Positions 7,385 to 9,141 of a DNA stretch of 64,000 nt are shown piece after piece. A program made the position numbers and the translations under genes. This DNA comes from Xaviernesmea oryzae (GTDB taxonomy: Bacteria; Pseudomonadota; Alphaproteobacteria; Rhizobiales; Rhizobiaceae), in contig NZ_FXAF01000008.1 of the NCBI RefSeq assembly GCF_900177415.1, forward strand, positions 124,001 through 188,000, given 5' to 3'. The stretch's first letter is position 1; each line of letters begins with the position of its first letter. The notes below the pieces were generated by a model, which did no database searches, was not told where the DNA came from, and saw only the letters and a list, made by a program, of their open reading frames with translations.

Positions 7385-7474
7385 ATGCCTTGCCCGAAAC
7401 GGGCATGGATGATACGAAGAGGCATGGACAGAAACGTGATCAGCACCTTCGTGATGATGATGCCGCGCTCATAG
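7385..7474 (+). CDS. Met-rich leader peptide of the metG attenuator
   Basis: A short open frame of 29 codons ends in VMMMPRS-stop. It has three consecutive ATG codons at 7454-7462 and the stop at 7472-7474. Possible starts are ATG 7385 (AAGG four nt upstream), ATG 7409 and ATG 7424 (GAAGAGG immediately upstream); all share the Met triplet. It lies ~35 nt before a strong terminator and ~110 nt before a methionyl-tRNA synthetase gene. The natural reading is a leader peptide whose translation senses charged Met-tRNA. This is inferred from geometry; I know of no described example for this gene. Confidence 0.65.
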   Translation: MPCPKRAWMIRRGMDRNVISTFVMMMPRS

Positions 7475-7508
7475 CGTGGCGGGTTTCGTGCATCCATACT
7501 GCACCAGC

Positions 7509-7531
7509 GACCGCCCTCGAGGCGGTCTTTT
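7509..7531 (+). terminator. Rho-independent terminator (attenuator) upstream of metG
   Basis: The hairpin is GACCGCC-ctcga-GGCGGTC (7509-7515, 7521-7527) followed by TTTT. It lies between the Met-rich leader ORF and metG, 50 nt before the metG start. A GGCGG segment at 7478-7482, just past the leader stop codon, could pair with CCGCC of the 5' arm (7511-7515) and act as an antiterminator. Confidence 0.8.
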
Positions 7532-7581
7532 CATGGGTCGATCCGTCTCGCGGGCAATACCAGCCTTCGAAAGGATCCCCG

Positions 7582-9141
7582 ATGAACAAGACGGCCACTT
7601 ACATCACCACCTCGATACCATATGTGAATGCCGCGCCGCATGTCGGCTTTGCGCTCGAACTCGTCCAGGCCGACGCCTATGCACGTCATTACCGCCTTCT
7701 CGGCCGCGACGTCAGGTTCCAGTGCGGAACCGATGACAACAGTTTGAAGAACGTCAGGTCGGCGGAAGCTGCGGGCCTGTCCGTCGCGGATTTCGTCGGC
7801 GCCAATGCCGCCAGGTTCGAACGGCTCGGTGCGCGGCTCGATATTTCCAACGACGCATTCGTGCGTACGTCGGGCAATCCGAGGCATATCGACTGCGTCC
7901 ACGCCCTATGGAACGCCTGCGCGGAGAGCGGAGATCTCTACCGCAAGGCATATGAGGGCCTCTATTGCGTCGGTTGCGAACAGTTCTACGAGCCCTCGGA
8001 ACTCATAAACGGCCGCTGCCCGGAACACGGCATCCCCCTCGAAACCGTAAAGGAAGAGAACTGGTTCTTCCGCCTGTCCCGCTACGGCGACCAGATCCGC
8101 CGGCTAATCGAGCGCGGCGAGCTCGAGGTCGTCCCAACCCACCGGCGCAACGAGGTGCTCGCGCTGTTGCGGCGTGGCCTTGACGATATCAGCGTCTCGC
8201 GCAGCGCGGAGCGGGCCCGCGGCTGGGGCGTTCCCGTCCCCGGCGAAGATGAAGTGGTCTACGTCTGGTTCGATGCGCTGGCGAACTATCTGACGGGGCT
8301 TGGGCTTGGTTTCGGTTCCGATCCGCAACTCTTCCAGCGCTACTGGAATGGCGGGGGCGAACGCATCCATGTCGTGGGCAAGGGCATCTCCAAATTCCAT
8401 GCCATCTACTGGCCGGCCATTCTCCTCTCGGCCGGCCTGCCGCTGCCGTCCTCGATCCTCGTGCACGGCTACGTCACCGTTGACGGCAGGAAAATCGGCA
8501 AGTCGGCCGGCAACGGCATCGACCCCGACCGCCTTGTCGACGCCTACGATACGCCCGACGCGCTTCGATACTACCTGCTCAGGCACATACGTTCAGGAGA
8601 CGACGGTGATTTCTCACGCGAGCGTCTGGAAGCGGCATGGTCAGGGGAACTTGCGGGGCAGCTCGGAAATCTCGCCAACCGCGTCCTTGCCCTTCTATCC
8701 ACGTCCTTCGGCGGGATCGTCCCGCCGGTGCCTGACAATGCCTTCGTGCGCGAGGCGGCGCATCTTCCCGGGAAGGTCGCCGAAGCCTTCGACGATTACG
8801 AGCTCCATGTCGGTCTCGCCCGAATTTTCGAGTTTGTCGGCGAGGCCAACAGGCAGTTCGCGAAGCGGACGCCCTGGACGGATGCAAAAGCATTGTCCGG
8901 CGATCTTGATGCCGGAGAGCGGGAGGCTTTGTCCTCCCGTCTCGGCGGCTCCCTCTCCGAGCAGGTCTTCGGGCTCGCTGCCGTGGCTCGCTGCCTTCTC
9001 CCATTCCTGCCGAGATCGGCAGCCGACCTGCATGCCAAACTCGGGATTCCGCAGCCGGAGACTTATCGGGAACCGCTGATCGTGGATGGAGCCAGCACGG
9101 CGCCGGAAGCCGTCCTGTTCCCGCGGCGCGAGGCATCCTGA
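7582..9141 (+). CDS. metG: Methionyl-tRNA synthetase, probable second copy type
   Basis: 519 aa class Ia aminoacyl-tRNA synthetase that charges tRNA-Met. The HIGH motif appears as AAPHVGFAL (~22) and the KMSKS loop as GRKIGKSAG (~300). The knuckle CVGCEQF...CPEHG (~130-150) keeps three Cys and replaces one with His. The catalytic domain is followed by an anticodon-binding helical domain, with no C-terminal EMAP/dimerisation extension. The short length and divergent KIGKS motif suggest a secondary MetRS rather than the housekeeping enzyme, which I do not see here. The ATG at 7582 lies after an AAAGGATC segment. It follows the leader peptide and terminator, suggesting expression tied to Met-tRNA charging. 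Confidence 0.9.
   Translation: MNKTATYITTSIPYVNAAPHVGFALELVQADAYARHYRLLGRDVRFQCGTDDNSLKNVRSAEAAGLSVADFVGANAARFERLGARLDISNDAFVRTSGNPRHIDCVHALWNACAESGDLYRKAYEGLYCVGCEQFYEPSELINGRCPEHGIPLETVKEENWFFRLSRYGDQIRRLIERGELEVVPTHRRNEVLALLRRGLDDISVSRSAERARGWGVPVPGEDEVVYVWFDALANYLTGLGLGFGSDPQLFQRYWNGGGERIHVVGKGISKFHAIYWPAILLSAGLPLPSSILVHGYVTVDGRKIGKSAGNGIDPDRLVDAYDTPDALRYYLLRHIRSGDDGDFSRERLEAAWSGELAGQLGNLANRVLALLSTSFGGIVPPVPDNAFVREAAHLPGKVAEAFDDYELHVGLARIFEFVGEANRQFAKRTPWTDAKALSGDLDAGEREALSSRLGGSLSEQVFGLAAVARCLLPFLPRSAADLHAKLGIPQPETYREPLIVDGASTAPEAVLFPRREAS

Follow-up and report, generated by a model that had tools for sequence, protein, structure and literature searches.

A candidate methionine-specific leader-peptide attenuator associated with one clade of auxiliary methionyl-tRNA synthetases

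Leader-peptide attenuation is a textbook mode of control for several amino acids. It reportedly also governs trpRS1 of Streptomyces coelicolor, an antibiotic-resistant auxiliary tryptophanyl-tRNA synthetase gene under ribosome-mediated transcription attenuation according to the title of the 2010 work by Vecchione and Sello, and the leader codons of that system are said to match the amino acid of the enzyme. The available excerpts of PMC1262725 describe attenuators for the Streptomyces genes trpS and leuS and for gammaproteobacterial pheST; for the methionine operons of Actinobacteria they report that no RNA structure is conserved. In rhizobia, the 5' end of the rnTrpL RNA of Sinorhizobium meliloti coincides with the ATG of its leader ORF (excerpts of PMC7298713). 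The retrieved portion of the main text of PMC2965389 contains neither 'methionyl' nor 'metG', and that of a review of duplicated synthetases covering the indolmycin-resistant TrpRS1 contains neither 'methionyl' nor 'MetRS' (PMC9437257). Among the matches listed in a literature search, judged by titles and the beginnings of abstracts, no Met-codon attenuator of a methionyl-tRNA synthetase (MetRS) gene was found, in agreement with the remark in a preliminary description of this DNA that no such case was known to its author in alphaproteobacteria; the priority of a methionine attenuator is not certain. Here we analyze a window of 64,000 nucleotides from Xaviernesmea oryzae, the whole stretch of DNA under study, and its comparison with related sequences points to a real, conserved, Met-specific leader-peptide attenuator bound to a single, patchily spread clade of spare MetRS enzymes.

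Leader ORF and alternative hairpins upstream of metG

Direct reading of the forward strand identifies a leader ORF at 7424-7474, encoding MDRNVISTFVMMMPRS in 16 codons plus stop (ATG GAC AGA AAC GTG ATC AGC ACC TTC GTG ATG ATG ATG CCG CGC TCA TAG). The Met-Met-Met leader of the preliminary description is exactly where it had been placed, with the regulatory codons ATG ATG ATG at 7454-7462 and the TAG stop codon at 7472-7474, and GGCGG at 7478-7482, a terminator at 7509-7531 and the metG start at 7582 likewise occupy their claimed places. On the same strand, hairpin 1:2 pairs 7462-7469 with 7473-7480 and so takes in the leader stop codon together with the codons that separate it from the Met run; 99.5% of its cells are paired in 24 distinct sequences. 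Arm 2, GGCGG (7478-7482), forms the 5' side of the antiterminator by pairing with CCGCC at 7511-7515; this pairing, which had been proposed, is present and kept in the 24 distinct sequences, with one broken pair in the 2:3 helix in 1 of the 24. The antiterminator is longer than had been proposed, including also a conserved apical stem, GUGC:GCAC, between 7488-7491 and 7501-7504. The intrinsic terminator, also on the forward strand, comprises arm 3 (7509-7515), arm 4 (7521-7527) and a U run (7528-7531), reading GACCGCC-CTCGA-GGCGGTC (7509-7527) and then TTTT, with 100% of cells paired in the 24 distinct sequences. Pairings 1:2, 2:3 and 3:4 are mutually exclusive, as an attenuator requires. Terminator and antiterminator thus bear out the classical layout first suggested, to which the conserved hairpin 1:2, absent from that suggestion, must be added.

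Taken singly, the window sequence is not beyond chance, since a terminator scan returned 1 site against 1.3 expected in shuffles and the fold of 7424-7540 alone (z = -1.72) was equaled by 11/200 shuffles. A chance coincidence of ORF and terminator, conceivable on one sequence, is ruled out by comparison with relatives. A contig scan kept 79 distinct loci, 31 of which (L003-L033) encode a MetRS 71-82% identical to the window enzyme, and all 31 carry the leader ORF at a similar distance from the MetRS gene. One of them, L031, belongs to the laboratory strain Rhizobium johnstonii 3841. Counting the window, 2-4 Met codons precede the stop in 32/32 loci, with exactly three consecutive ATG codons in 28, four in L008 and two in L013 (MVM), L024 (MMV) and L029 (MM). 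The 26 distinct leaders have 15, 16 or 17 codons and no internal stops, and the first half of the peptide drifts, second codon positions differing about as often as third. It is thus the codons, rather than the peptide, that are kept. The variable half shows no sign of selection, and a trans-acting functional peptide was rejected on this basis. The preliminary description had held that loss of the ATG triplet in related genomes, combined with free variation of the hairpin, would refute attenuation; the opposite was found, the Met run being kept in 31/31 close relatives.

Across the 24 distinct sequences, 99.6% of cells are paired for helices 1:2, apical and 3:4 together and 99.1% for 2:3 plus apical, compared with 22-67% in a control with partners slid. 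Within the Rhizobiaceae the arms are nearly invariant, with two-sided change at 1 pair, and covariation is not above chance, letter shuffles reaching the observed score in 59/500 cases for 1:2, apical and 3:4, and in 500/500 for 2:3 plus apical. Covariation in this family is uninformative because there is too little sequence change. In divergent homologs, with enzymes 44-56% identical to that of the window, the gene is likewise preceded by a hairpin and by a leader in which Met codons directly follow one another. They include L085, L086 and L087 (54%) from one genus of the same family, L186 (56%) from genome G1165, L131 (52%) from another family of the order, L133 (51%) from a plasmid of Streptomyces sp. 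NBC_01558, L134 (49%) from Embleya sp. NBC_00896, L035 (48%) from a Gemmatimonadota metagenome-assembled genome (MAG) and L038 (44%) from an Armatimonadetes MAG.

The arm layout was tested in 12 sequences (WIN, L028, L024, L017, L135, L141, L086, L186, L131, L133, L134 and L035, without L038, L085 and L087). In the divergent families tested the arm letters differ and the four-arm pairing scheme is the same. In all 12 sequences arm 2 is located 9-32 nt past the Met run and pairs not only with arm 3 but also with arm 1, the first bases beyond that run. The arm 2:arm 3 letters are GGCGG:CCGCC in the window, GAAGCGG:CCGCUUC in L086, GGAAGCGGC:GUCGCUUCC in L186, GAGGUGG:CCGCCUC in L131 and of the GGGGC:GCCCC type in L133. 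Covariation of the pairing, a check proposed in the preliminary description, is almost lacking within the Rhizobiaceae; the changed letters come from the divergent families. A joint shuffle control was matched by 0-34 of 500 shuffles in 11/12 sequences (WIN, L028 and L017, 6 each; L135, 2; L141, 10; L086, 1; L186, 0; L131, 5; L133, 20; L134, 34; L035, 9), L024 being the exception at 75/500. Taken by itself, the 2:3 pairing stands out less, being equaled by 1-168 of 500 shuffles. Two covariance models were used, R1, with brackets one column off, and its corrected version R2, trained on Rhizobiaceae-type leaders only. Searched against 44 sources, R2 located, with E values of 0.003-0.034, the leaders of L085, L086, L087, L131, L134 and L186, missed L133, L035 and L038, and gave no match in 26 other-MetRS loci (25 from L034-L061, plus L002) or in the broken-gene locus L138. 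A further weak R2 match (E 0.57) falls on the other strand of the L135 terminator. In L135 (Agrobacterium pusense plasmid pr1, upstream of 3001; enzyme 72% identical), MMM is kept, the stop codon is displaced by 24 nt in the 3' direction and the terminator has a poor U run; this leader is possibly decaying or rewired.

Alignment with relatives by eye places a putative promoter on the forward strand at 7390-7418 (-35 TTGCCC at 7390-7395, 17 nt, -10 TACGAA at 7413-7418), giving the spacing TTGCCC-17-TACGAA-5 nt-ATG; a sigma-70 scan returned no site. Of 45 distinct upstreams, 35 have a best -10 box that ends 5-7 nt 5' of the leader ATG. The other 10 have distances of 2-4, 10, 11, 20 and 21, and the window counts among these (distance 10) because the scan picked another register. 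Conserved DNA starts at 7388-7389, adjoining the -35 box, in 7/31 relatives. The position of the -10 box in most upstreams suggests that the leader mRNA is leaderless, with its 5' end at about the leader AUG; by eye, L035 and L038 seem to carry ordinary 5' leaders.

Folding energies bear on how the alternative structures would compete. For a transcript ending at 7535, the 2:3 state (-16.3 kcal/mol) trails the 3:4 state (-19.5 kcal/mol), the terminator being ahead by 3.2 kcal/mol; the 3:4 state leads by 1.4 kcal/mol at transcript end 7552, and the 2:3 state by 1.2 kcal/mol at 7600. Since the terminator wins at equilibrium when just made, antitermination must be kinetic; in classical attenuators, antitermination is won by timing. 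A calculation in which the antiterminator was the more stable in 32/32 cases was discarded, its energies deriving from unlike stretches and a like-for-like comparison reversing the result by 3.2 kcal/mol. An intrinsic terminator with a U run, of four residues in the window, is found there and in most Rhizobiaceae; the run is poor in L135 and L141, and L133 has none.

Two further elements lie between the terminator and metG on the forward strand. A possible arm 5, GAUCCGUCUC (7540-7549), can pair with arm 4 when arm 2 occupies arm 3, with all 7 pairs standard in 32/32 alignment rows save one A-C cell. This pairing reaches -12.5 to -23.1 kcal/mol in all 9 alphaproteobacterial variants tested, with 0-65/1000 shuffles as good; the corresponding figures are 88/1000 in L133 and 239/1000 in L134, and no arm 5 was found in L035 (887/1000) or L038 (550/1000). 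Our guess is that arm 5 serves as a trap for arm 4 after read-through. A small hairpin, CCUUCGAAAGG (7564-7575), located by eye around the Shine-Dalgarno sequence of metG and similar in many aligned relatives, might add translational control.

The auxiliary synthetase clade and its leaders

The gene that follows (7582-9141, forward strand) encodes a 519-aa protein, P0001, that scores above cut-off for NCBIfam TIGR00398 (metG) and has MetRS relatives in the PDB, so that the regulated gene fits the sensed amino acid. The metG named in the preliminary description is therefore a MetRS gene, and not the housekeeping one: it is a second, patchily spread copy, 40% identical at the protein level to the other MetRS of the same 6.07-Mb genome (2 copies), which is encoded on another contig. 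Both auxiliary and housekeeping enzymes were found in 6/6 further genomes tested. P0001 has a single CxxC...CxxH knuckle (CVGC...CPEH) and, in a column matched by eye, the Leu of VWFDAL, features that fit type 1 MetRS as set out in the available text of PMC8165550; the 'MetRS2' of that literature denotes something else, and we use the name auxiliary MetRS.

We inferred a tree of 70 rows, comprising 23 auxiliary enzymes, L038, the housekeeping enzyme of the same genome and 45 others randomly drawn, with L045, L138, L143, L077 and L079 left out. The auxiliary rows and L038, 24 in all, group in one clade with support 100/98. Its members come from Alphaproteobacteria and Streptomycetaceae and from a single MAG each of Gemmatimonadota and Armatimonadetes, so that one MAG contig apiece represents two of its four phyla. 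All 24 rows have a Met-run leader with 2-4 Met codons (23 by an automatic test, L141 by eye). The switch is not confined to Rhizobiales, the order in which the preliminary description proposed to compare orthologs, and occurs also in Streptomyces, Embleya and the two MAG phyla. The neighbors of the clade in the tree are MAG enzymes (L034, L037 and L041) whose upstreams failed the leader test. Of five MetRS on viral contigs (29-36% identity), the two included in the tree (L176 and L178) fall far outside the clade.

The auxiliary clade has GxD[DE]N[SA] at the active site in place of GTDEHG. The letters DEN[SA] and GKG (usually DEHG and GKD) are common to the clade and the MAG enzymes L034, L037, L039 and L041, two titled Patescibacteria or Levybacteria and two 'bacterium'. 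As a mark of resistance these letters were rejected, because they also occur in relatives whose upstreams failed the leader test (L034, L037 and L041). In L023 (Pararhizobium polonicum) the auxiliary metG translation ends after 160 residues; the gene may be frameshifted or its start mispicked.

The automatic test, which scores an MM leader plus hairpin, was applied to 165 loci, 13 of 178 having been left out as second copies of counted places; 29 class-sample loci were entered. With enzymes classed as auxiliary when their best tblastn piece was 47% or more identical, the test was positive in 53/59 auxiliary and 1/106 other MetRS upstreams, or, since 12 pairs among the 59 share an upstream, in 42/47 and 1/105 distinct ones. 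The lone positive among the others, L038, falls inside the auxiliary clade in the tree. Six auxiliary upstreams were missed. L013 has MVM, L141 and L181 share one upstream with a short stem, and in L138 and L143 the gene is broken; the sixth, L045, is a partial gene that carries the housekeeping motif and was sorted as auxiliary by the identity cut.

In the genus, the auxiliary MetRS and a strong attenuator match each occur in 9/57 genomes, R2 scoring the same 9 strong places as R1 at 74-106 bits and the next at 32. Eight genomes have the attenuator before an intact auxiliary gene. The ninth attenuator (G1166) precedes a truncated one: in this locus, L190, the attenuator is intact and metG stops short after some 45 codons. 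The one remaining enzyme, that of G1165 (56% identical), has the divergent leader L186, missed by both whole-genome searches. In the family sample, searched with R1, a strong match was obtained in 4/394 genomes, the same 4 that encode a MetRS more than 70% identical, and 3 genomes with a 54% enzyme were missed. Weak R1 matches outside MetRS were set aside; the highest-scoring one in the family sample, L115 with 33 bits, is by eye a terminator-rich intergenic stretch. In the class sample (385 genomes) the genome itself scored 917 bits and the next 496, and in the phylum sample (249) the values were 855 and 512; we take the 496- and 512-bit matches as housekeeping background.

Attenuator DNA is present in 8 plasmid records, directly before the auxiliary metG in 6. 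In the other two, Rhizobium sp. T1473 (plasmid locus L143) and T1470, some 2.8 kb separate it from the remainder of metG, as would be seen had an insertion split the gene. Two further records have the auxiliary metG without an attenuator match at cut-off: in A. pusense (L135) the leader is deviant, and in A. vaccinii (L138) the gene is broken. At the DNA level, 31/31 blastn comparisons align, within about 5 kb, only the cassette, flanking DNA being unshared, with aligned starts at 7388-7454 and ends at 8701-9139 (9336 for L024). Switch and enzyme appear to have traveled together among distantly related bacteria.

Proposed mechanism and alternative explanations

We consider it very probable that the element controls the auxiliary MetRS by ribosome-mediated transcription attenuation, with charged elongator Met-tRNA as the signal that is sensed. 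The initial proposal of a Met-leader attenuator before a MetRS gene is supported by the Met run, the exclusive pairings and the layout in relatives, comparison being decisive where the single sequence was not. RNA polymerase would start at about the leader AUG, on which a ribosome would load directly. Under ample Met-tRNA, the ribosome would reach the UAG at 7472 and cover arm 2, so that 3:4 forms and transcription stops at 7528-7531. Under scarce Met-tRNA, it would presumably wait at 7454-7462, its footprint extending, on the size we assume, to about 7468-7475; with arm 1 covered and arm 2 free, arm 2 would pair with arm 3, together with the GUGC:GCAC stem, before arm 4 is made, and the spare MetRS would be transcribed in the absence of a terminator. 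If no ribosome loads, 1:2 would form and the terminator would follow, and after antitermination the freed arm 4 may be captured by arm 5, locking read-through. Folds masked for the ribosome footprint still form the terminator, which counts against this model, as do the equilibrium lead of the terminator until arm 5 is made, the short, poor or missing U runs, the deviant leader of L135, the near lack of covariation within the Rhizobiaceae, the modest shuffle result for 2:3 taken singly, the leaders missed by R2 and the single MAG contigs behind two of the phyla. Because Met is also needed for initiation, strong loss of Met-tRNA would stop leader translation and lead to termination, so that the switch would answer only partial loss.

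Arrest-peptide stalling is known from erm-type leaders, and a nascent chain ending in Met-Met-Met-Pro-Arg-Ser could likewise stall the ribosome on a drug or metabolite rather than on low Met-tRNA. The strong conservation of MMMP(R/L)S in the Rhizobiaceae and the recurrence of MMPR in Streptomyces and Embleya would suit such a switch, but the remaining leader peptide is unconserved, Pro is replaced in L005, L020, L021, L024, L025, L027, L035, L038 and others, one Met is changed to Val in L013 and L024, and L029 has two Met. The CCG/CGC letters are moreover required for hairpin 1:2, and the controlled gene encodes MetRS; we regard arrest as improbable. Somewhat less probable still is a constitutive terminator that yields a small RNA and fixes a low synthetase level with no sensing. 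Every molecule has all the arms without any signal, and P9, the Rfam family that comes closest, is classed as an sRNA; this explanation nevertheless leaves unaccounted for the conserved Met codons, the stop codon inside hairpin 1:2 and the double pairing of arm 2, with arm 1 as well as arm 3, across families whose letters differ. A known Met-related regulator (SAM riboswitch or T-box) or a protein regulator is most improbable of all: SAM-II riboswitches do precede metA and metZ in Sinorhizobium (excerpts of PMC9373788), but the ORF and four arms account for the element, and an Rfam search of the whole 64-kb window, riboswitch and T-box models included, gave 0 matches at gathering score. Below that score, the hits (P9, isrD and two snoRNA models) were all weak and were rejected.

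If the element is a Met-tRNA attenuator, it has a built-in conflict, in that Met-tRNA also starts translation of the leader, and a natural system of this kind would allow the split of Met-tRNA between initiation and elongation under shortage to be tested. Its tie to a second MetRS of patchy distribution may be a sign that some hitherto unrecognized MetRS inhibitor occurs in the environment. We put forward as a weak hypothesis that the natural trigger is a compound that inhibits the housekeeping MetRS and to which the spare enzyme is resistant. A more far-reaching version, which we hold tentatively and think rather unlikely as a whole, is a mobile, self-regulating cassette of promoter, Met-sensing leader and spare MetRS, spread across several phyla as protection from natural inhibitors of housekeeping MetRS, that senses elongator Met-tRNA at an AUG run on a leaderless message and whose fifth arm locks read-through; if true, it would evade the paradox of sensing the initiation amino acid. 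The leader also serves as a sequence marker for such enzymes, having singled out the gene of the Armatimonadetes MAG before the tree assigned it to the clade.

Comparison with described systems

In an alignment to 7454-7530, the Pseudomonas sRNA P9 (RF00624) resembles the window element in the order of its parts, codon run, hairpin, linker and terminator. The match, at 24.8 bits, lies below the gathering score of 43, and the consensus codons of P9 are Ile-Ile-Ile; the window element is not a member. The aligned RF00624 consensus reads AUU AUU AUU ACC GCC AUU CCU GUU AUG GCG GGU UAG and continues into a terminator; P9, on this reading of its consensus, appears to be an attenuator of the same design for isoleucine. 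A search for P9 in control genomes gave no match.

The rnTrpL/peTrpL system, in the available text, is like the present one a rhizobial leader-peptide attenuator with consecutive regulatory codons, the leaderless start being our inference here, but it belongs to a Trp biosynthesis gene and acts in trans as sRNA and peptide, whereas here the gene encodes a synthetase and no evidence of action in trans was found. With one search pattern, a trp leader was not found in the genome of the window. The trpS, leuS and pheST attenuators, as excerpted, share with the present locus a classical attenuator before a synthetase gene, and in contrast to the survey in PMC1262725, within its available text, Met leaders are seen here also in Streptomyces and Embleya.

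The trpRS1 gene of S. coelicolor, by the title of its description, is like the present gene a second, non-housekeeping synthetase gene under attenuation. Its enzyme is antibiotic-resistant by that title, whereas resistance of the auxiliary MetRS is a hypothesis only. The present system further differs from trpRS1 in that the sensed residue is Met rather than Trp, and hence also the initiation residue, and in that it occurs in four phyla, of which two are each represented by a single MAG.
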